Assembly (NCBI RefSeq): GCF_900496995.4
Contig: NC_044018.1
Coordinates: 28,054,858 to 28,118,857, forward strand
Origin: Aquila chrysaetos chrysaetos
Lineage: Eukaryota; Chordata; Aves; Accipitriformes; Accipitridae
Reading direction: 5' to 3'
DNA length: 64,000 bases
Positions 7,841 through 57,999 of the stretch are shown in pieces. A model generated the notes under the pieces. That model was not told where the DNA came from and did not search any database. It was given only the letters and a program-made list of their open reading frames with translations. Each line of letters starts with the position of its first letter. Position 1 is the stretch's first letter. A program made the position numbers and the translations under genes.

Positions 7841-13994
<6,154 letters not shown>

Positions 13995-16184: not shown

Positions 16185-19100
16185 ATGGGGCGGCCGGGGG
16201 GGCTCTTGCTGCTGCCGCTGCTGCTGGCGGCCCCGGGGGCGGCCGGGACAGGTAAGGGACTTGGGGGGGCACCCGCGGGGAGGATCCCTTCCCCCACCCC
16301 AGGCACCCTGACCCCCCCCTCCGACCCCCCCCCGGGTGTCCCCAGGGTCCTGCGAGCCCCAGGCGTCCTGCGAGGCGTGTGTCCGCTCCCACCCGCGATG
16401 CGCCTGGTGTGAGGACCCGGTGAGTGTGGGGACCCCCCCGATCCCCCCCCACCCTGACCCCCTCCTCACCCTGACCCCCCCACCCCACCCGCAGCGCTCA
16501 GGGTCCGGTTTTGGGGGTTCCCCACCATACTGGGGGGCGTTGTGTCCCTGGGGGGGGGGGCCGTGTCCGTGGGGGTCACAGTGTGGCTTTGGGGTCCCCC
16601 TGGGGGGTCGCAGGGTGGGGTGGGGGAGTGGGGTGCGCTGGGGTCCCTGGGGGTCCCCCTGAGATGTGGGGTCCCCGTGTCCCGTGGGGGGTTCCATGCA
16701 GTCCCCATTTCCCGTGGGGGGTCACCGTGTCCTGTGGGGTCCCCACGAAGTCCCCATGTCCGTGGGGGTCCCTGGGTGCCCTGGGGTCCCCTGGGGCTGC
16801 AGCATCCTGTTGCAGTAGGGGTGCAGCATGGGGGGGGGCCTGGTGTCCCTTGGGGTGTCCCACGGGGTCACAGTGTGCTGTGGGGTGGCAGCTGTGCTGT
16901 GGGGGTCCCCGGTGTGACGCAGGGGGGGGGGCACAGCATCCCTGTGGGTCCCCAGTGAGGCACGAGGCCCCTTATGTGCCATGGGGTGCCGGGGGGGGGG
17001 TCCCAGGCTCCCTGGGGACCGTGTGCCTGGGGGTCCCTGGGCCCCCAAGTATCCCATGAGGGTCCCTGTTGTCCCTGGGGCCCCCATGTGCTGTGGGGCC
17101 TGGTGGGTGCCAGCCCCCCACCCCCCTCCCTTGCGTGACCCCCCCCCCCCATCCCTGCGGTTTGTCACCAGGAAGCAGCAAAACCTCAGTGACAAACAGC
17201 CGGGGGGGGTTGAGGGGGGTGGGGGTGGCCCCCCCGCAGCACCCAGCACCCGCCTGTCTCCCACGTCCCCTCGGGGGCAGGGACGTGGGGTGCAGGGGAA
17301 CGTGGGGTGCAGGGGAACGTGGGGTGCAGGGGATGCAGAACGTGGGGTGCAGGGGAACGTGGGGTGCGGGGGGGGTGCAGGAGGGACACCGCAGAGGGAC
17401 GCGGGGTGCAGGGAGGCGAGGTCTGGGACGATGGGCGCTGGGGACGCGAGCGATGGGTGCAGGAGGGATGTGGGGCGCAGAGCGATGGCTGCCAGGGAGG
17501 TGGGTGCTGGGGGGGTTGTGGGGTGCAGGTGGCTGTGGGGTGCGGGGCGGTGGGTGGAGGGGGGATGTGGGGCGCGGCGGGACGTGGAGCGGTGGGTGCG
17601 GGGGCAGGGTGGGGCAGGGGGTGCTGGCGCTGACCCCCGTCTCCCGCAGGATTTCACGCGGGGGGGGCAGGCAGAAGCCACCCGCTGCGCCCCGCGGGAG
17701 GCCCTGGAGCGAGCTGGGTGCCCCCCCGGCGCCGTGGTGGAGCCCCGCGGCAGCGTGCGGGTGCTGGAGGATGAGGAGCTGGGTCCCGGGGGGGGCCGGG
17801 GGGGGCCCACCCAGCTGCGGCCCCAGAGCATCCAGCTGCTTCTCCGGCCGGGTGAGGGGGGGGGCACGGGGAGAGGAATGGGGGGGGGGGAGAAGATGCA
17901 GAAGATGGGGGGTGGTGGGGGAGATGGACGGGGGGGGGAAGGAGATGTGGGATGGGTAGCGAGTTGGAGGGGGTGAAGAGGAAGGTGGAGGATGGCTGGG
18001 GGGCTGGAGAAGGAGGATGGAGGGGGGGACGGGGAGATGGGGCAGCCCCATGCTGGGGGGGCTGGGGAAGGGTGCCGGTGGGATGCGGGGGGAGCTGGGA
18101 GCTTAGTTTTGGTGGGGGGGAGGCTATCGGCCCCCCCTGACCCCCACCCCAGGGGAGGAGCAGAGCTTCCAGGTGCGGTTCCGGCGGGCGCAAGGCCACC
18201 CCGTGGACCTCTACTACCTGATGGATCTCTCCTACTCCATGAGGGACGACCTGGAGAACGTCCGCAAGCTGGGCAGCGACCTCCTGGCCGCCCTACGCAA
18301 CGTCACCTCCTCCGTCCGCATCGGTGGGGACACGCCGGGGGGGGGCCGCCGGGGGGATTTCGGGGTGCTCGGGTGCCCCCCCCCCCCACGCTCCTGCAAC
18401 ACCAAAGCTTTGTTCCCCACCAGGTTTCGGCTCTTTCGTGGACAAGACGGTGCTGCCCTACGTCAGCACGGTGCCCTCCAAACTGCGTAACCCCTGTCCG
18501 GAGCGGCAGGAGCCCTGCGACCCCCCCGCCGCCTTCCGCCACGTCCTCTCCCTCACCGCCGACGCCGGGGAGTTCGCCGAACGCGTCAGCCGCCAGCGCA
18601 TCTCCGGCAACCTGGACGCACCCGAGGGCGGCTTCGACGCCATCATGCAGGTGGCCGTCTGCGAGGTCAGTGGGCGAGGGTGGGAGCGGGCAAAGCCGGG
18701 GGGGGGGGGTGTGCAAGGGTGCCCGCCGGCAAGCGGGCACATGGGAGTGAGTGTGCGCGGGTGTAGGTGAGCCTGCGTGCGAGAGGATCTGCAAGAGGAC
18801 GCGCGAGCGTTTCTGTGTGCAAGTGTACCTGCGAGTGTGGCTGGGAACGTGGCTGTGTGCAAGAGCATCTGCAAGTGTGCCTGCCTGAAACCACGCTTGC
18901 CTGCAAGTGTTGCCTGCACACAGGAGCATCTGCAAGTGCGCATGCAAGCATTTCTGCGTGCAAGAGTGCGTGCAAGTCTGTGAGCATGCCTGCATGCAAG
19001 AGCGAGTGCAAGCGTGCCTGCCTGCAAGCGATCCTGCAAATGCGTCTGCCTGCAAGAGCGTGTGCAAGCGTGCGTCCAAGCATGCCTGCCTGCCTGCGTG

Positions 19101-22100
19101 GGTGCCTGCAAGAGCGTGTGCAAGTGTGCGTGCAAATGTGCTTGCCTGCAAAAGCGTGTGCAAGCATGCGTGCAAGCATGCCTGCCTGCAAGCGAGCCTG
19201 CATGCGTGGGTGCCTGCAAGAGCATGTGCAAGTGTGTGTGCAAGCATGCCTGCCTGCAAGAGGATGTGCAAGTGTGTGTGCAAATGTGCTTGCCTGCGAA
19301 AGCATGTGCAAGAGCATGTGCAGGTGCGCCTGCCTGCAAAAGCGCCTGCCAGCGTGCGTGCAAGCACAACTGCCTGCAAGTGTGTGTGCAAGTGTTGCTG
19401 CATGCAAAAGCACATGCAAGTGTGCCTGCAAGAGCATGTGCAAGCATGTGTGCGTGCAAGCAAGCATGCATGCCTGCAAGTGAGCCTGCATGCATGGGTG
19501 CCTGCAAGAGCATGTGCAAGTGTGTGTGTGCGCAAATGTGCCTGCCTGCAAGTGTGGGTGCAAGCATGCCTGCATGCAAAAACCTGTGCAAGCATGCATG
19601 CATGCAAGCTTGCCAGTGCCCACGCACGTGTCCAAGCTTGGCGTGCACCCTGTTGCGAGCCCCCCCCCGCCCGTGCCCCCCCAGGAGCGCATCGGCTGGC
19701 GCCCCGTCACCCGCCTGCTGGTCTTCGCCTCCGACGACACCTTCCACACGGCGGGGGACGGCAAACTGGGTGGCATCGTCGTCCCCAGCGACACCCGCTG
19801 CCACCTTGATGCCAGCGGCGTCTACACCAAAAGCCACCTCTATGTAGGTCCCCAGGCACCGGGGGGGGGGGTGGCTGGGGGGGGGGGCCCAGCACCCATG
19901 CTCCCCCCCCCTTGCAGGACTACCCCTCGGTGGGCCACTTGGCCCAAGTGCTTTCGGCCGCCAACATCCAGCCCATCTTTGCCGTGACGGGTCCCACCGT
20001 GCCCGTCTACCAGGTGAGAGAGGAGGGGGCTGTCCCGGGACGGGGACGGGGGGGGATCCCTGAGGGGGGGGTCCCGGGCCCCCCCTGACCCTGTGCCCGC
20101 GCAGGAGCTGAGCCGCCTGATCCCCAAGTCGGTGGTGGGGGAGCTGCGGGAGGACTCCAGCAACGTGGTGCAGCTCATCGCTGACGCCTACAACGTGAGG
20201 GGGGGACACACGGGATGCCTGGGTGGGGTGGCCCCCCCCAGATGGGGTGGGTGCCCCCCAGGGAGGGTCGGTGGGTGCTGACGCCCATGGGTGCCCCCCC
20301 CCCCCAGAGCCTCTCGTCCACCGTGGAGCTGCAGCACTCGCCGCTGCCCCCTGGCATCAGCCTCAGCTACGAGTCCCACTGCGGGGGCCCCCCCGGCCCC
20401 CCCCGGCCCCATGGGGGCCTCTGCACCGGCGTCCGTGTCAACCAGGAGGTGGGGGGACATGGGGGGGGACATTGGGGGGATATAGGGAGACATGGGCACA
20501 GGCTTGGTGGGCATGGGGGGGACATGGGGGGACATCGGCACAGGCATGGGGGGGCACAGGGGAGGCATGGGTGGTCACAGGCTCGGGGGGGCTGGGGGGG
20601 CACGGCCGCAGGTTGGGGGGGACACGGCCCCGTGGGGCAGCGGGCAGGGCTGGGGGTGCTGGGCTGGGTCAGGCTGGGCTGGGCTGCTCCCCCCCCCACC
20701 CCGGGGGTGACAGGGCTGGGACGTGGGGGACCCACGGGGGTGGCAGAGCCCCAGGGACTGATCCTGCACCCGCCCGTGTCCCCCCCGTCCCGTGTCCCTG
20801 CCTGTCCGACCTGTCTGTGTGTCCTTCTGCATCCCCTTGTGCCGTGGGTGCCCCCCCCCCGCAGGTGACCTTCACGGTGCGGGTGCAGGCGGGGGTCTGC
20901 CTGGGGTCCCCGCAGCGGGTGGGACTGCGGGTGCTGGGCTTCACCGAGGAGCTGAGCCTGGAGCTGGGCACCCTCTGCGGGTGCTCCTGCACCCACCACC
21001 AGCCCCAGGCCCCCCTCTGCCACGGCGGCACCCTCCTCTGCGGGGTCTGCAGGTACCGAGGGGGGGGCATGGGACAGGGTGGGGCGGCAGGATGGGGATC
21101 TGGGGGGGTGGGCTGGAGGCAATGGGGGGGAAGGGGGGGTCCATGGGGTGGGCTGGGGGTCCAAGGGGAGGGATGGAGGCAAAGCGGGGGGGTGTCCATG
21201 GGGCAGGGGGGGGGGGCTGACCATGGCTGATACCCCCCCCCCTTGCCCCAGGTGCCCTGGGGGCCGTCGGGGCCGTCGGTGCGAGTGCGAGGGAGCGGCG
21301 GCGGAGGCGGCGGAGGCGGCGGGGGGCTGCCGGCCCCCCAACAGCACAGGGCCCCCCTGCAGCGGCAGAGGCCAGTGCGTCTGCGGCGCCTGCGAGTGCC
21401 CCCCTGGGCTCAGCGGGACCCTCTGCCAGTGCGACAACAGCGGCTGCGAGCGCCATGAGGGGCTGCCCTGCGGAGGTGGGGGGGGGGCCACGGGGGCCAC
21501 GCCTGTGCCTGTCCTGGGGGTTCCCATCCCTGGGCAGGGGGGGCTGTCCCCATGGCATGTCCCCATGGGTCCCATCCCTGTCACATGTCCCTGTCCCCAC
21601 GGGTCCCATCTCCAAGGGGGTCCCATCCCCATGGCGTGCTCCTGTCCCACGGGTCCTGTCCCCATCGTGTCCCTGTCCCCGTGGGGGTCCCGTCCCAATC
21701 AGGTGCCCCTGTCCCCACGGGTCCCCTCCCCACTGCATGTCCCACGGGGGTCCCGTCCCCATCACGTTCCCATCCCACTACGGGTGGTCCCATCCCTGTC
21801 CCACGGGTCCCACGCGGGAGCGGGGGTCCGGGGGACACCGCGGTGGCCCGTTGGGGCCGTGTGATGCCAGCGCGGTGCCCAGGCCCGCAGCGGGGCAAGT
21901 GCGTGTGCGGGACGTGCCGGTGCCACGAGGGCTTCGGGGGCAGCGGCTGCGGTTGCCCCCTGGGCCGGGGGGGCTGCCTGCACGGTGGCCGGGAGTGCAG
22001 CGGCCACGGGCGCTGCGTCTGCGGGAGCTGCCTCTGCCAGCCCGGCTACGTGGGACCCTTCTGCGCCCGCTGCCCCTCCTGCCGCACCCCCTGCCAGCGC

Positions 22101-25927: not shown

Positions 25928-30708
<4,781 letters not shown>

Positions 30709-34130: not shown

Positions 34131-37100
34131 CCGGGCTGCGCCCGCTTGTGGATGAGGGTGGCCGGGACGCGTCGGATGGCGGGAGAGCAGCTGGCGGAGA
34201 GTCGTCCCGGGCTGGATAAAGCCAAGCACGGGAGAGGAAATTCCTGCGGGAAGCCTTCCAGGTCTCTGCTGGATGAAGCCGTGCGGAAGGGGACGGATGT
34301 GACCGAAAAGGTGGGTGAGACCCGGAGCCCCCCCAGCGAGGTGGTGGGGACGGAGCGGGGGTCCCTGCCTGACCGGGGCCGAATCCTGTTCCCCCCTTCC
34401 CTGCAGGTCTGTGACTGGAAGGAGCCCCAGGAGCTGCGGGAGCTGCTGGACCTGGAGCTGCGGAGCAGCGGGGAGCTGCCGGAGCGGCTACTGGAGCGCT
34501 GCCGGGACGTCATCCGCTACAGCGTCAAAACCTGTGAGCCCCGCTGCTCCCGGTTCAGCCCAATCCTCGTCTCGCCAGTCAGCCTGCTCCCCGGTTCAGC
34601 CCCAGCTGCTCCCTGTTCAGCCCCTCTGCTCCCCGGTTCAGCCCCAGCTGCTCCCAGTGGTCCCAGTCTGGCAAGGACTGCTCCCCAACCAGCCAGGAGT
34701 CCGCTGTCCTGCACGGTCGGGTTCCCGCACGGTCCCCAGTCGTAGTACACTGGTCCCACACACGGCTCCAGAGGTGGCCCTGCTCCCACGGGTGACAGTT
34801 GCCCCCTTGTGGCAGCATCAAACCAGGGCATGAGGTACGATGCGGTGACAAGGATCGGTCGAGAGGGAGGGACCGATGGGGGTGGGCCTGTCCCCTGCAC
34901 ACTGACGCTTGCCCCCTCTCCCCCCCGCCCCCCAGGTCACCCTCGCTTCTTCAACCAGCTCTTCTCCGGCCTGGACCACCACGCGCTGGCAGGACGCCTG
35001 ATCCAACCGAAGGCCCTCAAACCACGCCAGTACGGGCGACGGGAAAAGGGGAGGGGCTGGCCCTAAGCAGGGGTATTTTGGGGTGCTGATAAGGTGTGGG
35101 GGGAGACTGAGGAGGTGGGGGGGGAGTTGACGTTTGCAGGCCAGGGGAGAGAATCGACCACGGGGTTTTGTGTGCCACCCTGGTAGATAACACGTACGAG
35201 AGATCGCCCGGTGGTTCTGATGATGACGGGGAGGAATAGGTGGGTGATGGCCAAAAGCTGCGGGGGAGAGAGCTGGTAGGGCTGAGCAGTAGTGGCGGAG
35301 CGGCATATTCTGCCAGGACCAGATCACTCACAGCCCGCCAGGTGGCTTGTCCCTGTCCCTGTCCCCACCTGTGACCCCGGTGGTGGCTCATCACCGTCTC
35401 CGGCTGTGACGTGGGTGTCCCTGTCCCCTGGCAGGAGGCTCCATCTCCAACATGTATGCCATGAACGTGGCCCGGTTCCACCGCTTCCCAGAGAGCCGGC
35501 AGAAGGGCAGCTGGGCTCTGCCGCGCCTGGCCCTCTTCACCTCCCAGGAGGTGGGGAGGCGGGGTCTGCCAGCCCCGGGGCAGGGGGACGAGGAAGGGGA
35601 TGGGGTTTGGGACCAGCCCCACCTCCCCCAAATCTGGGGACCCCATCTTCTCCCCGCTCAGAGCCACTACTCCATCCAGAAAGGAGCTGCGTTCCTGGGC
35701 ATCGGCACCGACAACGTCCACCTGGTGGGCACCGATGAGAGGTGAGTGCCGGAGCTGATCCCAGCCGGGCTCTGCCAGCCCTGCTTCCCCAGCCCCTCCA
35801 TGGCTGCACATTTTTGTTTCTCTCCCCGTCCCTCAGGGGGAAGATTGATTCACGGAGGATGGTGGGAGAAAAGGAGATCAAGCAGAGGGCAAAAGAGAGG
35901 GAGGAGGGGGAGCGGTGGGGGGGGGGGACAGAGGGGAGCGTCCATGGGGTGCTGGGTTTTCCTATCGGTGCTGGGCGCAAGCTGTAGTGAAGAGGCTCCC
36001 CTGAGCCACCATATCCTTCCAATCTGCCACACATCCCAACAATCCTTGTCCCGCCAACACGGGGCCAAGCCGATTCGTCTAGTTGGCCACCATGTGGCCA
36101 CCCACCGTCCTGGTCGGCGCCTTCGAACCCACTGGGACAGATCACGCGAAATTCTGCCGTGTGCCACGGCCTCTGGTTCCACGTGGACGTGAGTAACGGG
36201 GAAATATCTGGGGTGGGGGAGGGGGAGGACTCATTGACACGTGCCCCCTTGGGTGGGACCACATCTTCCTTGCTCGGCAGCGGCGATATTACCACCCCTC
36301 TGCCCTGACCCAGGCAGGCAGGCCTGGGCCAGGCAGCAGCACAGCTCGTCGGGCCTACCCGCAAACACGGCAACCTCAGGCGGCTGTCGAGAGGCTAATG
36401 TGACCACCCCCCGACTCTGAGCTCCCCACAAAACAGGCTCAAAACTCCCCATTTAAGGACTTGGGGACCCCCCTCTCCCCATGCTGGGGGCTCGTCTCCA
36501 CCCTCAGAAAAAGAACTCTAACACTCTCCCGCAGGGCCGACTCGGTGGCCTGGAACCCCCACAAGATGCTGACAGTGGGTTTGCAATGTTCGGCCTTCCT
36601 GCTCCGCGACACCTCCGTAAGTCCCACGGCCCCTTCCCCTCTGTGGGTCTGCCCCACACCACCATGCCGGTTGGGGGGTGGGAGCGCCGGTCTACACCAC
36701 CAGGGCGTCCTCCAGCGCGGATGCCACGGGCCCGGTGCCCAACGACCTCTTCAACACCGGAAAAATAAATTTTCCGACGTCAGTACGACAAAGGGGACAC
36801 GACACTGCAGTGGCGGGCCGCGGAGTGGACTGCACCTCAAGCTCTGGCTTCCTCGGAAAAGCCGGGGTGGGAGCCAGAGCGGGGCTGGAGCGGCCGCGTT
36901 GAGCGGGCCTTCGCCTTCACCCAGTGAGCGCTGGACCTGGGGGGACACGACACAGGCCCACGCCCCCCACACTACATAGGGGCTTAACCTCTCGCTCCTC
37001 CCCAAGGTTTACATGGACGAGGAGGTGAAGAGGAGGATTCGGCTTGTCCACAGCTGGTGCTGGAAATCGTAAACGGGGGGGGACGTTGTCGCCTGGTCTG

Positions 37101-37884
37101 CCGTGTCCGCACCGCAGCCCGGGGCGTAGAGTTTTATGATCTGCATTCTCCTCCCCGCCCCTTTAATAAGCACACTAGGCATTGCCAAAAGCCGCCGGAG
37201 GGAGAGGGCAAGACAACGCTCACCTGAAGCTCTGACCCGAAAGCGGAACGGGTTTAATCCCCGGGAAAGGGTCCCACAAAAATGGGATAGGGGGCAAACA
37301 ACTGGCGATCCCGACCAACCCCACAGGGGGTCTGGTTCCGTGAGGGAACGTAGGATGCGACCTTTTCTACCTCCGTAATCTTCCTCCTCCCTCTGCCGTC
37401 CGCAAGCACAGAGTTGTCAGTACAACACGATATTGCTTCTGTTCAGTGCCCCACAGCATGCGGGGAGAAGGAGGGCTCCCCGGATTAATCGGCCGACGAG
37501 TTGGGAAGGTGAGCGCAGGAAGCTAGAAGCCGGTGAGCATGCCCGAGAACGAAACACCCCACCCCTGCACCGCTCAGTCAAATTGCACCATCCCCGGAAC
37601 TGCGCCAAGACCCACAATTCCCGGAGAGGATTAGGTGGACGAAAAGATGGGATCTCCCCCGACGCACAGGGGCCCCGCCAAAATCAAGACATGAAGGTGA
37701 CGGTTAGAGACGGATACTAGATTGAGGCGGCGAGTAGGGAGGAAACAGGTCCATGATGGTGGGCTACCAGCCCCACGGCGCCAGGGTCAACTTCTTCCGC
37801 CAGATCGTCACCCAACCCCGCCGTCACAAGGTAACAGACGGGATTCTCCTGGATGAGATCGAGAGGCTGGGACAGGATTTGTGA
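34130..37884 (+). CDS. CSAD: Cysteine sulfinic acid decarboxylase, frame-disrupted here
   Basis: PLP enzyme that decarboxylates cysteine sulfinate to hypotaurine in taurine synthesis. Intact exons: 34407-34533 (VCDWKEPQEL), 34936-about 35030 (GHPRFFNQLF region), 35435-35550 (GSISNMYAMNVARF), 35662-35741 (HYSIQKGAAFLGIGTDN), 36535-36616 (ADSVAWNPHKML, with the PLP lysine in NPHK). Recognisable but indel-riddled exons lie near 34170-34310 (one extra base between FLREAFQV and LLDEAV), 35188-35230, 35255-35320 (GIFC), 35836-35910, 36085-36188, 36320-36395, 36706-36924 and 37009-37120. The last exon, about 37746-37884, starts clean with SMMVGYQPHGARVNFFRQIV, slips one frame, and recovers at LLDEIERLGQDL, TGA. 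Splice sites at clean exons are normal. Either a sequencing-error patch or a decaying gene; I favour the first. Confidence 0.75.
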
Positions 37885-38002
37885 GGACCCCAGGAGGCCT
37901 CCTAGGACCCCTTACCCTCGCCCAGCAGACCCCTCCACGCATGAGAAGAGTTGAGCAGAGCTAGCACTTTCCTCCGGCATCCGGCGTCCACACTTAATTC
38001 GG

Positions 38003-38008
38003 AATAAA
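38003..38008 (+). terminator. CSAD: Probable CSAD polyadenylation signal AATAAA
   Basis: GGAATAAAGAGCGG about 120 bp after the CSAD stop codon. Position fits, although surrounding sequence quality is doubtful. Confidence 0.5.
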
Positions 38009-38019
38009 GAGCGGAAGCG

Positions 38020-39440
38020 GGCTCGACGCCACCGCCCGTTGAGGGGTGGGACAAAACCAAATCACTTCGACAAGTTGCAGGCCTAAAAGTAATTCGGACA
38101 GATGGTACCTGATTCCGTATATCAATTTATAGACTTCAGTTTTGTAGTCAATGCTTCTAGTCGATATTAGGCTATAAGAGCAGTATTAATACTGCCTCCA
38201 CCCCCCCACCTCAGGTAATAGGTGTTCCTACTTGTGTCAGGAGACTGGCAAAATGGGGGCCTGAGAGTGTGAGCATGTAGCGCATAGGCAGTTTTGCACC
38301 AGCTACTTGCTCGCTCCATCACAAGTCCTGACCTAACTGGATGTAGAAGATCGTGAGAGAAGTAGACATTCCGAGCAAAACACTATGGCATGTTAGTACA
38401 GTTGTTCTGTGACTCGTAGACAGGTCTAAGGGCCAGGTCATAAGCTGCCCTGGCAGCGTTCAGTTCAAAGTTGTGTATACGTGCTTTTTGGTTAAAGGGT
38501 GTGTAGCCAGAGCAGTGACATGGCCGAGGAGGTTCACGATAATGTACTGAGACCTGCGACGCTTCGAACCGGAGTAATTTTGTACAGGGTGAATGGTTCG
38601 CATTCCTTGAGAATTCACACCCCTAAACTTTCAGCCTCAGAAGAGCTTCTGCCAGCCCCCCCTCGTAATGTGAGCCAGACCAGATATGAAAATGCCAAAC
38701 TTATAGAAAGCCTTGCAAAATGGATAACGCTGGCGACGATTCCTGAAAGGAGCACACAGCAGGTTTCAGCTAGTAACCACAGACCGGAGAATTTTTTGTC
38801 GGGACTCCCAGGGAGAACATGGTCCCTTCCTGCTTCTCCGCCGCCGCCCACTCAGCGGCACCCCCCCCTTCTCGCGACGAACACTTTGTCATCATCCCTG
38901 TAAATCAAAGAAAGTTCGACGTGCTGAATCGAAAGGAAACCGGAGATCTATAGTCTCGCCTGCCATGACTGACAGTTTCCCCTCTCCAGAATGCTTGGCA
39001 TCCTGCTCAAGAGTGCTAAGCACATTACTTGGCCGCAGGACCACTTTCTGTATTATAAAGGTCGTCTGTCATCCAAGCGAGACGTCAGAGCTTCCAGCAA
39101 TTTACTTAGGGTTTTTCTTCAAGCATCACGTAGTATTTTCTCTGTGATTTGTCACGTAACACCTACCCTTGCTCCGCTGCAGCTTAGCGCGCAACACTCC
39201 TTTATGTGCGTTTTATGCAAGCTTCGCTATGCAGGGACCAGAGGAGACAGGCTAGAAGGCGTAGGCCGTTGGTAGTGTGAAGTACATGCGTCATCACAAA
39301 GACGTATGCTGGGCTGGATCCCATAATACCGCATCATACACCGCATCCTCCTAACCGCATAGTCGAAACACCTTCATGCACGGTGATAGCCTACTACCTG
39401 GTTCATGCCTACTCCGGAAAGGACAGGATTCATGTGAAAG
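38020..39440. other. Unrecognisable low-GC patch, likely assembly filler
   Basis: Nearly balanced base composition, no G/C runs, no repeats, no family-like open frame and no splice-bounded exon, in sharp contrast to both flanks. Human-order synteny predicts SOAT2, IGFBP6, SPRYD3, TNS2 and the body of EIF4B between here and 40.3 kb; none is present. GC-run-rich sequence resumes at about 39445. Confidence 0.5.
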
Positions 39441-39899
39441 ATCGCCGGCTTTTCCCTGGGGAGCCACCGGGGGGGGGGCCTCGGCCATCACGAAGGCGGT
39501 GGGAGCTTCTCCGCCCCGGCTTAAGGGGGGGGGGGGGGGGGCGCAGTTTGCTGCATTCCCCCCCCCCCCGGGCTCCAAATGGCACCGGGAAAAGGCGGGG
39601 GGGACACGACCGGTCTCTGCTTTGGGGCTGCGGGGGGGGAGAGCGGGTGAAACAAGGGGGGGGGGGGGGTCGGGAACGAGCTGCCCCTGCGGCCCGGCCA
39701 CCATCTTACCGGGAACAACGGGGGGGGGCACGGCGGAGGAGGGGGGGGGGCCGTTCCAGCTCCCCCGGTCCAGCAAAGTGCGACCAAGGCCCGGGGGGAG
39801 CAGCCGGACCCGGGGGGGGGGCTCCGGTACCGGCACCACCACCACTTGCCCCCCCCCCCCCCCCGGTACCGGCCGCGTGCGCGCCCGCACCCCACGTGG

Positions 39900-40480
39900 G
39901 TCCCGCCCCTCCCCTCCCCTCCCCGCTCCGCGCCTGCGCAGTGACGCGGCCGAAGGTTCCATCTGCCCCCCCCCCCCCGCACGTCAATCACCGCCGGCGG
40001 CGCGCGCCCCCCCGCCAATAGGAGGCGGGCGGGGGCAGCGGCCGCGCGCGCCGGCCCTGGCCCGGGGAGGGGGAGGGGGAGGGGAGGGGGGGGGGGAAGG
40101 AGGAACGGGGGGGGGGGGGGGGGGTCCGGTTTCGCCGCCCGCCTCCCCCCGCCGCCGCCGCCGCTGTGCCCCCACCCCCCACCTCGGGGAGCGGCAGCGC
40201 CCGACGCGGTCCGGGGGGGCCCATCGGGGCCGGGACCGGCCTCCCCCCTCTCCCCCCGCGGGAGCCGCCGGGCGCCGCCGCCGCCGCGCAGCGCTCACCT
40301 GAGGCGGCCATGTTGGGAAGAGGCAGAGAAGGCAAAGGACCCGGATGGCGCCGTCACGTGACTATGAGCGCCACGCCCCCCTCCGGGGGCGCGGCCCCGG
40401 CCCGGAGCGGAGCGGCTGATTCTGCGTTTGGCGGCGCCGCCCGCGCCGAAATCCAGGGCTGGGGCCGCGCGGGCGCGCCG
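39900..40480 (-). promoter_or_regulatory. EIF4B: EIF4B CpG-island promoter region
   Basis: CpG-dense DNA around the EIF4B start. Upstream of the start codon (higher coordinates) is a palindromic E-box TCACGTGA at 40354-40361. Inside intron 1 is an NRF1-type CGCCTGCGCA (39931-39940). Confidence 0.6.
40299..40311 (-). CDS. EIF4B: EIF4B first coding exon (partial gene)
   Basis: Minus strand reads ATG GCC GCC TCA G then GTGAGCGC, a strong donor. The protein starts MAAS with the codon split after the fifth G, matching the short first coding exon of eIF4B (human MAASAKKKN). The setting also fits: a CpG-island promoter, and strand and position just beyond the KRT18 3' end, as expected from flipped human 12q13. 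eIF4B stimulates eIF4A helicase during cap-dependent translation. All later exons, expected at lower coordinates, are missing: only about 0.85 kb of normal-looking sequence follows before the low-quality patch and CSAD. Recognition rests on 13 coding bases plus context. Confidence 0.65.
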
Positions 40481-40489
40481 CGGAACCGC

Positions 40490-41235
40490 CGTGGGGCAGA
40501 GCCGTGGGGCACCGCCGTGGGGCACAGCCGTGGGATGCAGCCGTGGGGCACCGCCGTGGGGCACAGCCGTGGGATGCAGCTGTGGGGCAGCACCATGAGG
40601 AACAGATGTGGGGCACAGCCGTCGGGCACCGCCGTGGGGCACAGCTGTGGGATGCAGTCGTGGGGCAGCACCGTGGGGAACAGCCGTGGGGCACCGCCAA
40701 AGGTCACAGCCGTGGAGCATCGCCGTGGGGCACCAGTGTGGGGCAGCGCCATGGGGCGCATGCCGTGGGGCACAGCCATAGGGCAGGGCTGTGGGCCACA
40801 TGCCATGGGACAGCGCTGTGGGTCACAGCCGTGGGGCAAAGCTGTGGGGCACTGCTGTGGGTCAGAGCCATGGGGCACCACCGTGGGGCACATGCTTTGG
40901 TCACAGCCATGGGGCACGGCCGTGGGTCACTGCTGTGGGGCATCGCTGTAGCTCACAGCCATGGGGCACAGCTGTGGGGCAGCGCTGTGGGGCACAGCCA
41001 CGGGGCAGTGCCGTGGGGCACATGCCGTGGGGCACAGCAGTGGGTCACAGCCATTGGGAATAGCTGTGGGGCAGTGCTGTGGGTCACAGCTGTGGGTCAC
41101 ACAGTGGGTCAGAGCCGTGGGGCACATGCTGTGAGACGCTGCTGTGGGGCAGCACCGTGGGTCACAGCCATGGGGCAGTGCCGTGGGGCACATGGTGTGG
41201 GTCACAGCCGCATTGCTGGGCCCGTGGGGCAGAGC
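40490..41235. repeat. GTGGGGCACAGCCATGGGGCA array
   Basis: About 40 copies of a 16-20 bp unit (GTGGGGCACAGCCGTGGGAT, GTGGGTCACAGCCATGG) between the EIF4B promoter and the KRT18 3' end. Starts within 200 bp upstream of the EIF4B start codon. Produces open frames on both strands that are not genes. Confidence 0.9.
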
Positions 41236-41451: not shown

Positions 41452-44400
41452 TCAGTGGGTCCGCACCATCACCTCGGCCGCTGCCGGGCTCCCCCCCAGC
41501 CTCGGGGTGCTGCTCGGGGGGGGGCTGGTCGTCTGCTTCTCCAGGGCGTCCTGCAGGCTGGGGGGGGGGGGGGAGTGTGGGGTGTGTGTGAGGGTGCTGG
41601 GGGGCACCCCGGGGGGGTCCCTGCTCCTGTAGGAGCTGCCCCCCCCCTTCCCAACGTCACCCTGGGGAACCCAGAGGTGACGGAGGGTCTGGGGTGTCCC
41701 GAGCCTGACAAGTGCCACCGCTGTGTGTGTCCCCCCGTGTCCCCCCCCCGCCATGTCCCTGGGGCGTTGTGGGTAACAGGACCTGGCCCCCCCCCCCCGT
41801 CTGGGTGCCACCGCTGTCCCCTCCCCAGGGCACCCCCGGGGATGGAGCTGGGACACCCCAGCACCCGCAGCACACCCCAGCCGGGTGCCGCCACTGTCCG
41901 TCCCCCCCCCGCCATGTCCCCATGGTGTCACGGGTGCACCCCACCGGCCGGGCGACCCACCGCTGTGTCGTGTGTCGTGTGTCCCCCCCCAGAGCACCCC
42001 GAAGGACGGGGACCCAGACCACCCCAGCACCCCGGACCTCACCCGCACACCCCGCCACCGCTGTCCCCTTCCCTCCCCAAACTGGGGTGACTGGGGACGG
42101 GGTCCCCCATCGTCCCCCCCCCCTCTACCTGAACTCCTCTCCCCCCTCCAGCAGCTGCCGGTAGGTCTGGATCTCGCTCTCCAGCTGACCGGTGACCCGC
42201 CGTAGGGCCTGCTGCTCCCCGGCTTGACGACCCAGTTCATCCCGCAGCCCCCCCAGTTCCTCCTGGGTGCGCAGGATCAGCCCCCGCAATTGCTCCAGCT
42301 GCCCCCCATAGCGGGTTTCCACCTCGGCCAAGTTGGCCTCCAGGCCGGCTTTCTGCGGGACGTACGGCTCGGCGTCACCGGCACCGTCGCCGGTGGCTCG
42401 GTGGCCCCCCCCGGGTGGGTTGTTTGGGTGTGGGGGGGTTTTGGGGGTGATGGGGGGCACCTGGTTGCGGAGGGACTCCAGGTCGATCTCCAGGGTCTGG
42501 AGGGACCGGCGCAGACCCAGCGCGGTGCTGCGAGCCGCCTCCACGTCCCGGCTGCTCTGCGTCAGCTCCACCGTGCTCGCCGTGATCTGGGGGGGACGGA
42601 CGGACGGACGGACGGACGGACGCAGACATGGGTCACGGGGGGGCTCAGCGCCTTGGCCTGGCCCACCGCGGTCTCCCCAACCCCCGGCGGGGGCATGGCC
42701 GGGGGTGGTATCGCCCCCAGGAAGAGCCGACCCCCAGGACCCCACGGGATGGGGGTCACCCCGGGAATGTCCCCGGTGGTGGAGCAGGGCCCCCCCTTGG
42801 AGAGGGGACCCCCCCCGAGACCAGGGTCCCCCATAGGATGGGGGTCACCCCAAGAGTGTCCCCGATGTTGGGCCAGGACGCTACTGGGTTGAGCCCCCCC
42901 CCATGGGGTGCCTTTGGGGAACACCCCCATGGTGGAGTGGGGACCCCCAGGGGTACACCACCCCCCCAGATTGGGGGTCCCCCCGTGTCAGGACCCCCAC
43001 GGGAACACCCCCCCCAGGTAGGGGGTCCCCCCCCCAAGTCAGGACCCCCATGGGAACACCCCCCCCAGATTGGGGGTCCCCCCATGTCAGGACCCCCATG
43101 GGAACACCTCCCAGATTGGGGATCCCCCTCCCCATGCCAGGATGCCCATGGCAACACCCCCCCTCAGATTGGGGGTCCCCCCCCATGTCAGGACCCCCAT
43201 GGGAACACCCCCCCAGATCAGGGGTCCGTCCCCCCCCCATGCCAGGACCCCCAGAAGACCACCCCACGGAGCGTCACCCCAGCTGCCTGGGTGACCACCC
43301 CCCCCCGGGGTGCGAGTTTGGGGGGTTTTGGGGGGGGGGGTGTCCCCACCTGCTGCCCCCAGTGCTTCTCCAGCTCTTCCAGGTTTTTCCGGGCCAGGGC
43401 GTCGTACTGCGCCCGGATCTCCGCCATCGCCTTCCCCAGGTCCTGCGCCTCGGGCGCGTCCACCTCCACCGTCACCCCCGAGCTGGAGACCTGCGCCCGG
43501 AGACTCCGCACCTCCTGGGGGGCACCGGGGGGCCGCTGGCCGTGAGGGGTCCCCGTCCCACGGGTCCCACGGGTCCCCGTCCCCCCCGCCCCGTCTCCGT
43601 CCCCACCTCCTCGTGGTTCTTCTGCATGAAGCCGAGCTGCTCCCGGAGGGCCTCGATCTCCCCCTCCAGCTGCAGCCGCGCCATGTTGGTGTCATCGATG
43701 ACCTTGCGCAGCCCCGAGATGTCGTTCTCCACCGCGAGGCGGATGGCCAGCTCCGCCTCGTACCTGGGGACGCGGATGCGGCCCCGTCTGTGCTCTCGTC
43801 CCTGTCCCGTCCCTACTGCCACCTCCAATGCCTCCCCGTCCCCGTCCCCGTTCCATCCCTGTCCCCGTCCTTGTCCCTGTTCCCCATCCTCTGTCCCCAT
43901 TCCCACTCCTGTTTCCATCCTTGTCCTTGTCCTTGTCCCCATTCCCCACCCCATCCCTATCCCTGTCCCCATCCTTGTGCCTCCATCCTGTCCCCATCCT
44001 CTGTCCCCATACCCACCCTGTCCCCATCCCTGTCCCCATCCTTGTCCCTCCATTCTGTCCCCATTCCCACTCCTCTTTCCATCCTTGTCCCTGTCCCCAT
44101 CCCTGTCCCCATTCCCTCCCTGTCCCCATTCTCACCCTGTCCCCATCCCTGTCCCCATCCTTGTCCCTCCATCCTGTCCCCACCCTCTGTCCCCATTCCC
44201 ACTCCTCTTTCCATCCTTGTCCCTGTCCCCATTCCCACCCCCTCCCCATCCCTGTCCCCATCCTTGTCCCTCCATCCTGTCCCCATCCTCTGTCCCCATC
44301 CTTGTCCTTGTCCCCATCCCTGTCCCCATCCTTGTCCCTGTCCCCATTCCCACTCCCGTTTCCATCCTTGTCCTTGTCCTTTTCCCCATCCCTGTCCCCA

Positions 44401-45648
44401 TTCCCACCCCGCCCCCATCCTTGTCCCCATCCTTGTCCCCCATTCCCACCTCCCTTTCCATCCTTGTCCCCATACCCATTCCTACCCCGTCCCCATCCCT
44501 GTCCCCATCCTTATCCCTCTCTCCATCCTGTCCCCATCCTCTGTCCCCATTCCCACTCCTCTTTCCATCCTTGTCCCCGTCCCCATTCCCACCCAGTCCC
44601 CATCCCAGTCCCCCCCCAGTCCCTCACTTGACCCTGAAGTCATCGGCCGCCAGCCGGGCGTTGTCGATCTGCAGCACCCTGCGGGCGTTCTCCACCATCG
44701 CCTCAAAGATCTGGGGGGGGGGATCGGGGGCGGGACACGGGAGCACAGCACCGTCACCGGGGCGCGGGGACCCCCCCGCTGCCACCCGCCCGCGCTGCCA
44801 CCCACGTCACCCAGGCAGGTGCCACCCTGGCAGCTGCCCGCGCTCCTGCGGCGGGGAGGGGGGGGGAATGGGATGGGATGGGAAGCGGGGGGAACCTTGC
44901 CCTGGAAAAGCGGTGATAAACTGGGGTGGGCTCACTGGGGGGGACGCAGGTGTCCGGGCTGGGTCCTGGGTGACCCCGAGCCTGGCCGAGAATGCGGCGT
45001 GGGGGGGCTGTGGGGCTCGTTCACCTAAAAAAGGTGGCGTTGGACCCCCCCCCCCCCCGACACCGCCTCGCCCTGTTGCCCTTGGTCATGTCCCCTCACC
45101 CCCCCTCCCAAAAAAAGCCCCCTGGTGACATCCCTGACCGTGGGGTGCAAAGTTCACCCAGCCCCACCACCTGATGGGTTAATCCTTAACCCCACGGTGC
45201 CCCCCCCCCGCCACCCCCCAGCCTCCGGCAGGGATCCCACCTTGTCCCGCAGCTCCCGGACCAGCTCCCAGTGGTGGCCCCAGTCCTGGGTGCTGGGACC
45301 TTTCTTGGCCACCGCCTCCCGGATCTGGGCCTCCAGGCGCCGGTTCTCCTGCTCCAGGCTCCGGACCCGCTCCAGGTAAGCGGCCAAGCGGTCGTTGAGG
45401 TCCTGCAGCGTCTCCTTCTCGTTGCCCACCATGCCAGAACCCCAAAATGCCGTGCTGCCCCCCAAGCCGGCCCCATAGCCGGCCCCGTAGCCGCCCGCCG
45501 AGGTGGTCAAGCGGGTGACGGAGACGCGGCTGCCCGAGCCCCCCGCCCCGCCGTAGATGCTGGCCGCGCTGCCCGAGGGAGCGATGCCGGACCCGGTGCC
45601 ACCGGGGCGGCGGGGAAGGGAGCGGGTGCTGCCGCCGGGGAGGCTCAT
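41452..45648 (-). CDS. KRT18: Keratin 18 (type I), 7 coding exons
   Basis: Type I intermediate-filament protein of simple epithelia, obligate partner of KRT8. Minus-strand exons in order: 45648-45241, 44710-44628, 43763-43607, 43514-43350, 42586-42461, 42352-42129, 41557-41452 (408+83+157+165+126+224+106 nt, 422 aa; human is 430). The internal exon sizes are typical of type I keratin genes, and all introns are GT-AG in frame. Head 1-75 is Gly/Ser-rich. Helix initiation is [20 protein letters not shown] at 76-95. The coiled-coil rod ends at LLEGGEEF, about 380-387. The tail is short and diverged (Pro/Ser-rich, ending VRTH; human ends VLRH). A TATA box lies 140 bp upstream. Distinguished from other type I keratins by pairing with KRT8 and isolation from the type I cluster. 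Confidence 0.95.
42590..42625. repeat. GGAC tetranucleotide run in KRT18 intron 4
   Basis: About seven GGAC units directly at the acceptor side of intron 4 (minus-strand gene). Same tetranucleotide as in the KRT18 5' UTR array. Confidence 0.85.
42745..43320. repeat. Minisatellite in KRT18 intron 4
   Basis: Units of about 55-60 bp around GGGGGTCCCCCCATGTCAGG plus ACCCCCATGGGAACACCCC, about nine copies. Each unit contains a GGGGGTCCCCC hairpin palindrome. Confidence 0.85.
43790..44625. repeat. 0.8-kb CCATCCCTGTCCCC array in KRT18 intron 2
   Basis: Tandem CCCCATCCTTGTCCCTGTCC units with higher-order blocks (TCCATCCTGTCCCCATCCTC recurs many times). Fills the whole intron up to the second coding exon. 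Confidence 0.9.
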
Positions 45649-52577: not shown

Positions 52578-55500
52578 ATGTCCGTCACCATCACCAGGAA
52601 GACGGTGAGAAGCAGCTCGGTCGTACCCGGCCGTTCTTTCAGCTCCCACTCCTACACCGCCGGCCCCGGAGTGAGGATGAGTACGGCTTCAGCCTTCGGT
52701 GGCTACGGTGGGAGCCGTTACGGAACCGGGCTGTACCGGGGTCCAGCCGTCCTGCCTGGGACGGGGGGTGGCATCACGGCCGTCAGCATCAACCAGAGCC
52801 TCCTGACACCCCTCAACCTGGAGATCGACCCCAGCATCCAGCGGGTGCGCAAGGAGGAGAAGGAGCAGATCAAGACCCTCAACAACAAATTCGCCTCCTT
52901 CATCGACAAGGTGGGGCTGGGCTGGGGTGAGACCCCGCAGGGAGAGGGCTGGGACCCCCCTTGGGGACCTCCTGAGTCCCTCAGGGACCTCTTGACCCTG
53001 TCAGGCACACCCTGAGACCCTCAGGGACATTGAGACCCCCTCGGGGACCTCCTGGCCCCTTCAGGTCCATCCTGAGCCCCTTGGGGACACTGAGACCCCC
53101 TTGGGGACCTCCTGAGCCCCTTGGGGACCTCCTGGCCCCGTCAGGCACACCCTGAGCCCCTTGGGGACATTGAGACCCCCTTGGGGGCCTCCTGACCCCC
53201 TGTGGGACCTCCTGGCCCCTTCAGGTCCATCCTGACCCCCTTGGGGACATCCTGGCTCTCTTGGGGACATCCAGACCTCCCTGGGGACACCCAGACCCCT
53301 TTGGTCACATTTTGGACCCCTTGGGGACCTCCTGGCCCCTTTGGGGACATCCAGACCCCCTCGGGGACACCCTGGCCCCTTTGGGCACGTTTTGTCCCCC
53401 TCAGGGACCTCCTGCCGCCCTTGGGACCCCCATCGCCCCCCTCAGGGACCCTCTGACCCCCTTTGGGCACATTTTGCCCCCCCTCTGGGACCTCCTGGCC
53501 CCCCTGGGGACACGCAGCTGGCTGTGGGGACACCCTGGTCCCCTCCCACTGCTGGGGACATGGCGGCCGAGCCTGCAGGCAGGGAGCGGCGCCGGAGCAG
53601 GAGCTGGGATGGGACGGGATGGGGGGGGAGCGTTCCCTGCCCCCCCCCAAGTGCAGTGGGGGCATCCCCCACCGAGGAAGCAGCCAGTGCTGGGGTGGGT
53701 GCCCCACTCCCGCCGGCACCCAGCACCTTCCTCCCCAGCACCCGCTTCCGGATGCTCCGCTGGGGCTGGGCTCCTCGCCCCATCGTGGGCTGGGGGGGGA
53801 CACGGGGGTTCCCCTGGGGGCAACCCCAGATTGCACCCGGCACCCCAGGTTTACACCCCAGATCTGGCGACCCCAGACTTGCACCCCAGCACCCCAGATT
53901 GCACCCGGCACCCCAGGTTTGCACCCCAGACCCGGTGACCCCAGACTTACACCCCAGGACCCCACAAGCACCCCAGACCCAGTTTGCACCCCAGGACTCC
54001 AGAATTGCCCCCAAGACCCCCTGGCTTGCACCTGGGACCCCAGATTTGCACCCAGGACCCCAGATCTGCCCCCTGCCACCCCTCTCACCCACCCCACCCT
54101 CTGCTCCTTGCAAGCCAGCGCCCAAGACCCCCCCAGCCATGCACCCAAGACCTCCACGTTTGCACCCAGGACCCCAGCCTTGCACCCCAGATCCAGCTTG
54201 CTCCCAGGACCCCAGACTTGCACCTATGGATCCCAGATCTGCCCCCTGCCACCCACTCCTCTCGCCCACCTCACCCTCTGCCCCTTGCAAACCAGCACCT
54301 GGGACCCCCAGCCTCGCACCCAGGACCCTCAGCCTTGCACCCCAGATCCAGCTTGCACCCAGGACCCCAAATTTGCACCCAGGACCCCACATTTGCATTC
54401 AGGACCCCAGGTCTGCCCCCTGCCACCCCTCTCACCCTCTGCCCCTTGCAAACCAGCACCGAGCACCCATCTCCATGACCCACCTCGTGCAGCAGAACCC
54501 GTCCCCAGGGTGGGATTCGCAGGGTGGGGGGGCTGACGCTGACTCCCCCCCCCCTCCTCCCCAGGTCCGGTTCTTGGAGCAGCAAAACAAGATGCTGGAG
54601 ACCAAGTGGAGCCTCCTGCAGAACCAGAAGACCACCCGCAGCAACATGAGCGGGCTCTTCGAGGCGTACATCGCCAGCCTGCGCCGCCAGCTCGAGGGCC
54701 TGGGCCAGGAGCGCCTGCGCCTGGAAGCCGAACTGGGCAACATGCAGGGGCTGGTGGAGGAGTTCAAGAACAAGTCAGTCCCGTCCCCGCGGCCGCGACA
54801 CCTTCTCGGGGTGTCGTGTGCGGTGGGGGCGGTTGGGGATGCGGCACGGGCCCCCTCGTCGGCGTCTTCGCCTTGGGGTGCAGCGTCCCACCGTGTCGCT
54901 GAGGTGTTTGGGGTGGGGAGCTGGGGATGCTGGGATGGGGCTGGAGCGTCCCCTCCGGCTGTCATCGGGGTGGCTTTGCCCGGGGAGGGTGGTTCTTCCA
55001 CTGCGAGGGGCATCCGGGTGGATGGGACCCCCTGTCCCTGCATCCCTGTGTCCCCATGTCCCCGCATCCCAGTCTTCCCATGTCCCTGCATCCCTACATC
55101 CCCCGCATCCCTATATCCCCTGTATCCCCATGTCCCCATACCCCCATGTCCCTGTATCCCCCATATCCCTGTATCCCCCATATCCCCATGTCCCTGAATC
55201 GCCATATTGCTATATCCCTACATCCCTGCATCCCCCATACCCCCCACGTCCCTGCATCCCTGTATCCCCCGTGTCCCCGTATCCCCATGTCCCCATATCC
55301 CCATATCCCTGTATCCCCCGTATACCTGTCCCCCCCATCCCCATCTCCAAGCCCTCCCCTCTTCCCCAAGGTACGAAGAAGAGATCAACCACCGCACCGA
55401 GAAGGAAAATGAGTTTGTGCTGCTCAAAAAGGTGAGGGGGGGCCCCGGGTCTGGCAGGGGCCAGGCAGCATGGGCTGGGGGGGGCTGACGGGGACGGGGA

Positions 55501-57999
55501 CGGCCTGACGGGGACGGGGACGGCCTGATGGGCTGCCTGCTCTGCCCCCAGGACGTGGACGAAGCCTACATGAACAAGGTGGAGCTGGAGTCACGGCTGG
55601 AGAGCTTGACCGATGAAATCAATTTCTTGAGGCAGCTTTATGATGAGGTACGGGGTCACCTCCCTCGGGGGGGGGCCCACACGTGCACCGAGTTGCCCGT
55701 GCTCAGCCCGGACGCCATTCCTTGCCCGCAGGAGCTCCGGGAGCTGCAGTCTCAGATCTCCGACACCTCCGTCGTCCTCTCCATGGACAACAACCGCAGC
55801 CTGGACCTGGACGGGATCATCGCCGAGGTGAAGGCGCAGTACGAGGACATTGCCAACCGCAGCCGCGCCGAGGCCGAGAGCATGTACCAGATCAAGGTGA
55901 GCCGGAGCACCAGCCCCGGGATGCGGGATGCTCCAACCTGGCCCCCCTGCTGCCGGTGGTCCCCGCTCCTCCCTGATCTGGGATGAAGGAAGCGCAGGCT
56001 CCTTCCTCCTCCTCCCTGTGGCTTCACCCTGCAACCCAGCCGGGCAAACACCCTCCCTGCCCCGGAGCAGGCGGCTGCTGCGTGGGAGAGATCCCGGCTC
56101 CAAACCCAACCGGAGCCACCACAGCCCAGCCCGGAGCGTCCCTCCTGGCATGGGCACGTCCCGGCTCTTTTCTCCCCAATTTTGGGGGTTCTGGGGGAAG
56201 GAGGTGTGTGTGTGGGGGGGCACCCCATCTCCATCCTGCCCGCTCCGGTCTCTGCAGTACGAGGAGTTGAAGACGACAGCCGGGAAGCACGGGGACGACC
56301 TGCGCAACACCCGCAGCGAGATCAACGAGCTCAACAGGCTGATCCAGAGGATCCAGGCGGAAATCGAGGCGCTCAAGAACCAGGTCTGGGAATGGCCCCC
56401 GGGGCGGGAAAGTGGGGGAGACGCTGCCCGCTCCTCCCACTGCCGCCCTCCCCCACCAGCACCCCCGTGGCCCCTCTGGGCCTTGAGCCCCCCCCCTCCC
56501 GCAGCCGCCTGCGGAATCCTGTGGACCCTACCCTTGGGAGCCCCAGATCGGAGGAGGGATCGATATCCCCTAGATGCGGGGGGGGGGGTGTGTCATAGCG
56601 TGGGGGCACAGGATGCTGGGGGGCATGGGGGATGCTGGGAGGGGTGAGGGATAGTGGGACATGGGGAGTAGGGGATGCTGGGAGGGATGCTGGGGGTTGT
56701 GGGGATGAAGGATGCTGGGCTACAGGGGATACTGGGGGGTGAGGGGTACTGGGATGTGGGATTTTCAGGGGTGAGGGATGCTGGGGGACAGGGGATGCTG
56801 GGACATGGGAGATTCTGGGGGGCGATGGGTGTGGGGGATGCTGGGGGGAGCGAAGGGTGCTGGGGGGTGAGGGATGCTGGTGCATGGGGCCTGCTGGGGG
56901 ATGCAGAGGCACAGGGAGTGCAGGAGCACTGGGGATGCTGGGACACGGGGGACCCCCCAGCCCCTTCTCCAGGTCACCCCCTGGCCGTGCCTTGCAGCGA
57001 GCCAGCCTGGAGACGGCCATTGCGGAGGCGGAGGAGCGCGGGGAGCTGGCCCTGAAGGATGCCAGGGGGAAGCTGGCCGAGCTGGAGGCAGCTCTGCAGA
57101 AGGCGAAGCAGGACATGGCCCGGCAGCTCCGCGAGTACCAGGAGCTCATGAACGTCAAGCTGGCCCTGGACATCGAGATCGCGACCTACAGGAAGCTGCT
57201 GGAGGGAGAGGAGAGCAGGTGGGGACACTCCCGCCTTGCTGGCACCTGCATCCCACATCCCATATCCCCCAGGGATCCCGTGGGCATCCCATGGGCACCC
57301 TGCATCCCGTATGCCGCATCCCATGGGCACCCTGCGTTCCGTATGCCACATCCCGTGGGCACCCTGCATCCCGTATCCCACATCCCATGGGCACTCTGCA
57401 TCCCATATCCCCTGGGCATCCCACATCCCATATCCCCCGGGCATCCCACATCCCGCATCTGTTGGGCATCCCGCAGCCCCACCCCGGCTATCCGCAGCTC
57501 AAGGCTGTGGCCAGGACCAGAAGGACCCTGTGTCCCTCTGCCACTGCTCCCCCCCCCCCCCCAACCTGGCCTTTGGCATGTCCCTTAGCCCCTACCCTGA
57601 CACTCGGCGTGTGTCCTGTCTGTTGTGTTGTGTGTCCCCCCCCCCCCCGCCCCAAATTTCTCCTGGCAGGCTGGAGTCCGGCATGCAAAACCTGAGCATC
57701 CACACCAAGACGACGGGGTACTCGGGTAAGGCAGGGGGGTGACTGGGACCCCCCCCCTACTTGGGTGCCACCCCCCCGGTACCACCACGCTCACGGCTGG
57801 TCCCTCTCCCCCAGCAGCCGGCTTTGGCGGGGGCTTCGGGGGGGGCTTCGGCACCTCCTTCGCCAGCGCCGGCTACGTTGTGCCCCCCCCCGCCCTGGAG
57901 AGCTCGCCCCTCACCAAGTCCCGCGCCATCGTCATCAAGAAGATCGAGACCCGCGACGGCAAGCTGGTGTCCGAGTCCTCCGACGTCCTGGCCAGCTGA
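52578..57999 (+). CDS. KRT8: Keratin 8 (type II), 9 coding exons
   Basis: Type II intermediate-filament protein that pairs with KRT18 in simple epithelia. Exons: 52578-52910, 54565-54773, 55371-55431, 55552-55647, 55732-55896, 56258-56383, 56998-57218, 57670-57725, 57815-57999 (333+209+61+96+165+126+221+56+185 nt). The 483 aa equal the human length, and the internal exon sizes are typical of type II keratin genes. Head 1-95 is Ser/Gly-rich with [12 protein letters not shown]. Helix initiation [14 protein letters not shown] ends exon 1. Helix termination LLEGEESR is at 397-404. The tail has a Gly/Phe segment and ends [11 protein letters not shown]. All GT-AG and in frame. The last intron ends CAGCAG, so a one-alanine NAGNAG choice is possible. 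Divergent from KRT18, as in human. Confidence 0.97.
53000..53520. repeat. CCTTGGGGACCTCCTGACCC array in KRT8 intron 1
   Basis: About 20 units of 20-26 bp around CCCCTTGGGGACATCCTGA. Intron 1 is the longest intron of the gene and is mostly tandem repeat. Confidence 0.9.
53835..54480. repeat. CACCCAGGACCCCAGATTTG array in KRT8 intron 1
   Basis: Second, unrelated array in the same intron. The basic unit is about 20 bp. It includes a long duplicated block with CTCCTTGCAAACCAGC (near 54105, 54285 and 54445). Open in more than one frame, not coding. Confidence 0.9.
55030..55335. repeat. CATCCCTGTATCCCC array in KRT8 intron 2
   Basis: Tandem 12-15 bp units (ATCCCCATGTCCCTG, ATATCCCTGT) ending 35 bp before exon 3. 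Confidence 0.9.
56580..56960. repeat. GGGGGATGCTGGGACATGG array in KRT8 intron 6
   Basis: About 18 units of 18-25 bp centred on GGGATGCTGGGGG. Confidence 0.9.
57245..57485. repeat. CATCCCATGGGCACCCTG array in KRT8 intron 7
   Basis: About ten units of 20-26 bp with GCATCCCGTATCCCACATCC. Confidence 0.9.

Follow-up and report, generated by a model that had tools for sequence, protein, structure and literature searches.

The golden eagle (Aquila chrysaetos chrysaetos) reference bAquChr1.4 places the end of CSAD on chromosome 15 just 2.4 kb from a putative first exon of EIF4B, and comparison of the assembled sequence indicates that this junction is very probably an assembly misjoin rather than a biological event. 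The junction lies within the 64,000-nucleotide stretch analyzed here (the window), along which tblastn and direct reading give the order RARG–ITGB7–ZNF740–CSAD–(2.4 kb)–EIF4B exon 1–KRT18–KRT8. From the human order, we would presume SOAT2, IGFBP6, SPRYD3, TNS2 and the body of EIF4B to lie between CSAD and EIF4B exon 1. The initial annotation had placed CSAD directly beside EIF4B exon 1, and the gene order and strands obtained with tblastn agree. It had also favored a collapsed or wrongly bridged assembly; wrong bridging gains from the corrupted chromosome 26 piece at the join, the damage in CSAD and the failure to find the EIF4B body and the TNS2 PTB domain in the assembly searched, whereas collapse fits less well. 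Most likely, the missing block is a hole in the assembly that was closed by low-quality chimeric sequence. The junction and its flanks are made up as follows.

34266..35033, plus strand: CSAD 5′ coding exons, amino acids 28–116, mostly intact (tblastn, frameshift alignment)
35192..35313, plus strand: CSAD exon of about amino acids 117–149, insertion-damaged (frameshift alignment)
35431..35739, plus strand: CSAD exons of amino acids 150–215, clean (0 frameshifts in 66 codons)
35835..37884, plus strand: CSAD 3′ half, amino acids 216–493, with many frameshifts, mostly insertions (frameshift alignment)
37885..38070, no strand assigned: CSAD 3′ flank, ending at the first junction (no chromosome 26 alignment above shuffled or offset controls)
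38071..39459, plus strand: corrupted copy of chromosome 26 positions 7,389,995–7,391,002 (genome search, alignment, locus comparison)
39460..40298, minus strand: GC-rich stretch, presumed start of EIF4B intron 1 (no chromosome 26 alignment; adjoins the splice donor)
40299..40311, minus strand: putative EIF4B exon 1 coding part, Met-Ala-Ala-Ser and then a GT donor (direct reading, position beside KRT18)

The sequence at the join derives from an unrelated locus. When window positions 36400–40400 were searched against the genome, a single strong non-self match was obtained, to chromosome 26 (79% identity over 338 bases); the other matches, at 11 short places of 47–165 bases, all fell on GC-rich sequence at about 39849–40294. 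A fuller alignment resolved 38071–39459 (1,389 bases) as one collinear copy of 1,008 chromosome 26 bases, which accounts for the 1.4 kb that the initial annotation had found to be unlike either flank. The score of this alignment was 1004, whereas neither 20 shuffles of the source nor ten segments taken elsewhere in the chromosome 26 stretch exceeded 394. The comparison was also run on 51 loci, of which the first 3,400 bases each were used; L009 and L026 were not among them, as both hold the window copy. A score of 1004 was reached by the two loci that hold the source, and none of the remaining 49 exceeded 435. At the sensitivity of the search the source is single-copy, with chromosome 26 itself and the window as its only matches.

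With respect to quality, the copy is badly degraded throughout. Relative to its source it shows 919 matches, 54 substitutions, 416 inserted bases and 35 deleted bases, and no 100-base bin of the source is free of errors in the copy. Insertions occur in 191 events and deletions in 30 (binomial p = 7e-30 for the imbalance), and the substitution:insertion:deletion mix is 11:82:7 by bases and 20:69:11 by events. Transversions exceed transitions (41 versus 13), 38 of the 54 substitutions replace A or T with G or C, and G+C makes up 68–71% of the inserted bases versus 37% of the source. An aged duplication is not what these figures describe, because 41% extra bases are spread over some 190 scattered insertions as against 3.5% lost. 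The copy looks instead like a chromosome 26 signal mixed with GC-rich sequence, as might arise if dissimilar reads were forced into one consensus.

The bounds of the piece are sharp. Continuation of the chromosome 26 alignment was tested left of 38071 and right of 39459 at three gap costs, which were in agreement; the following figures are for a gap cost of 0.5. A model of two interleaved templates scored 225 on the left (offset-control mean 252, maximum 293, 65 controls) and 31 on the right (mean 28, maximum 88, 70 controls), and was rejected on both sides. A first, looser chromosome 26 alignment that apparently began at 37517 was dropped because the flank scores lie within the offset controls. 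The inserted bases, when concatenated, gave no alignment to the CSAD side (20 versus 27 for shuffles; reverse complement 17 versus 25). Against the EIF4B side they scored 34 versus a maximum of 33 in 60 shuffles (reverse complement 34 versus 32), a marginal excess that we attribute to runs of G and C common to both. A match to the RAR DNA-binding domain within the piece (38419–38520, E = 0.003), obtained with composition correction off, was taken as chance.

Damage of the same insertion type extends into CSAD, whose stop codon was located at 37882–37884 by sequence and tblastn. Frameshift-tolerant alignment with a human query, in which some intron edges may be misplaced and four control genes were treated alike, gave 1 frameshift against 67 codons for amino acids 43–110, followed by 7 insertion-type frameshifts against 32 codons for amino acids 111–149 (a weak alignment, score 27). 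An earlier alignment had shown no frameshift in amino acids 28–84 and 2 in amino acids 85–116, near 35001–35009. Beyond the clean exons of amino acids 150–215, the 3′ half carries 24 frameshifts (19 insertion-type, 5 deletion-type) and 1 stop against 254 codons. The aligned parts of KRT18 (368 codons), KRT8 (312), ITGB7 (260) and ZNF740 (86) contain 0 frameshifts in 1,026 codons, with one in-frame stop in the KRT18 alignment. The damage is therefore local and patchy, with its onset some 3 kb ahead of the first junction, and abnormal error density is confined to the neighborhood of the join. This judgement of error load covers the CSAD side and the four neighboring genes, with the EIF4B side (39460–40298) outside it.

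On the EIF4B side, direct reading of the minus strand from 40311 gives ATG GCC GCC TCA G followed by a GTGAG donor, with a pyrimidine tract preceding the ATG and KRT18 adjoining. Based on the human order, we take this place beside KRT18 to be where EIF4B belongs. With 13 coding bases only, the exon is putative, and its assignment to EIF4B comes as much from position as from sequence. A search of the window with the N-terminal part of EIF4B returned no match at E ≤0.01, the best among the weaker matches listed being 0.022. A minisatellite of the GTGGGGCACAGCC type occupies 40460–41230, just upstream of the putative exon.

The initial annotation had also held that genes are missing from the gap between CSAD and EIF4B, and had proposed that the rest of the assembly be searched for them. 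For EIF4B and TNS2 this is upheld, in that neither was found relocated; for IGFBP6, SOAT2 and SPRYD3 the evidence is incomplete and comes from family scans. Specifically, a 611-residue EIF4B query gave 6 matches at E ≤10 in the assembly searched, and with 23 of 23 candidates scored the EIF4B body was not found. The best match (E = 0.002, 37% identity) lies on assembly sequence C10 at the EIF4H locus, where the exons agree with an EIF4H sequence at up to 93%. Recovery of this distant paralogue serves as a sensitivity control for the EIF4B search, and the CSAD query likewise returned 46 matches comprising exons of CSAD and its relatives. The RRM family scan was too broad to serve alone.

For the TNS2 PTB domain, 12 matches were obtained in the assembly searched, 9 of them at three tensin loci (C6, C18 and C8; 43–69% identity by exon) and 3 at chance level, and no TNS2 was found. 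A PTB family scan gave 11 matches, in which the three tensin loci lie near IGFBP matches; from this linkage we presume them to be TNS1, TNS3 and TNS4, and we take the PTB matches on C16, C17 and C24 to be the EPS8 family. Tensin and IGFBP genes are thus neighbors at three places (C6, C8 and C18), and the fourth expected pair, TNS2–IGFBP6, falls in the missing block. The IGFBP (19 matches), SPRY (60) and MBOAT (8) family scans placed none near the window, single orthologues not being identified by them, and one exon on C12 is presumably SOAT-like. IGFBP6, SPRYD3 and SOAT2 are likely absent, as judged from these family scans.

Taken together, these observations make it very probable that the interval expected to hold SOAT2, IGFBP6, SPRYD3, TNS2 and the greater part of EIF4B was left unassembled; few or no correct long reads would have spanned the place. 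The two sides would then have been bridged by very poor sequence containing the chimeric 1,008-base chromosome 26 piece. A chimeric read, or a consensus forced on dissimilar reads, may have brought that piece in, and polishing would have failed as proper reads did not map there. The bAquChr1 assembly was produced from PacBio Sequel I continuous long reads (CLR) at 46-fold coverage with Falcon-unzip, arrow and 10X polishing (PMC8499043). It belongs to the Vertebrate Genomes Project (VGP), whose account of long-read vertebrate assemblies describes chimeric joins and low-coverage polishing faults for comparable data and tools (PMC8081667). The likeness is to a general fault, however, and the passages of that account on such faults do not describe a 1-kb filler from another chromosome (PMC8081667).

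Several points weigh against a misjoin of this kind. The error mix of the copy is more insertion-heavy than the 22:45:33 substitution:insertion:deletion ratio that the PBSIM3 description gives for Sequel CLR (PMC9713900), and another CLR data set, as tabulated in its report, has deletions above insertions (PMC5964698). Roughly 70% of the inserted bases are G or C, and the CSAD damage is interrupted by the clean stretch of amino acids 150–215 between two damaged parts. In addition, the case is built from the assembled sequence of one haplotype. Because of the error mix and the composition of the inserted bases, a plain single raw read would not be a full account, and a consensus that was mixed or forced would be the better fit.

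The possibility that the bird itself carries the junction was weighed in several forms. The initial annotation had raised a real rearrangement breakpoint as its alternative, and this finds no support, since the CSAD side and the junction are damaged where clean sequence was looked for, and neither the EIF4B body nor the TNS2 PTB domain was found elsewhere in the assembly searched. A true deletion or rearrangement, in which about five genes were lost, perhaps on one homologue, and the break was patched with a 1-kb copy from chromosome 26, would accommodate the contiguous flanks free of Ns, the sharp ends of the piece and the missing EIF4B body and TNS2 PTB domain. It is nonetheless highly improbable, as a real filler should match its source almost exactly or differ by mutations rich in transitions, whereas this copy has 416 inserted bases and more transversions than transitions. 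A real allele would presumably also have drawn enough reads for polishing, damage would not be expected to extend through CSAD, and an animal without EIF4B would hardly be viable. We consider equally slim the chance that one homologue has truly lost the interval between CSAD and EIF4B intron 1, carries the 1-kb chromosome 26 filler as its repair and was assembled from few poor reads.

Somewhat less improbable, albeit still unlikely, is a real insertion of chromosome 26 sequence, lying close to CSAD or within EIF4B intron 1; the missing genes and the noise would then come from an ordinary gap and low coverage. The collinearity of the piece over 1,008 bases and its sharp ends suit such an insertion; its location exactly at the join, the finding of no copy of the source besides it and the errors in every bin do not. 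Loss or relocation of the genes in the lineage (birds or eagles), which would make CSAD and EIF4B exon 1 true neighbors, is in keeping with the failure to find the EIF4B body and TNS2 PTB domain elsewhere and with family scans lacking a match near the window. We regard it as very unlikely, given that an EIF4B exon 1 with intact start and donor makes no sense without a body, and that the junction itself is corrupted. Narrow literature searches combining these genes with birds, missing genes, avian genomes and microchromosomes found nothing, which is silent on print at large.

If the junction is indeed a misjoin, the absence of EIF4B (except for its putative first exon) and TNS2 from this reference, probably along with IGFBP6, SOAT2 and SPRYD3, would be a technical artifact, as would the corruption of the 3′ half of CSAD. 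Surveys of gene loss and annotations lifted over from this reference could inherit the error; the annotation in a paper on the North American golden eagle was lifted from it (PMC13326411).

In the remainder of the window, the neighboring genes were placed by tblastn, with CSAD itself on the plus strand by its protein query.

10567-11714, plus strand: RARG (RAR DNA-binding domain query)
18206-20382, plus strand: ITGB7
25967-26465, minus strand: ZNF740
42131-45588, minus strand: KRT18
52857-57219, plus strand: KRT8

A further KRT18 match at 15.9 kb (E = 0.007), again with composition correction off, was taken as chance, and no Rfam family reached its gathering score in the window. A run of 12 consecutive Ns stands at 29866–29877, where the surrounding sequence is continuous. 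Within KRT18, a low-complexity array at 44001–44500 translates as Gly-Trp-Gly-Gln repeats on the minus strand, and its three-base entropy of 3.94 is the minimum among the 48 half-kb bins between 24 and 48 kb.
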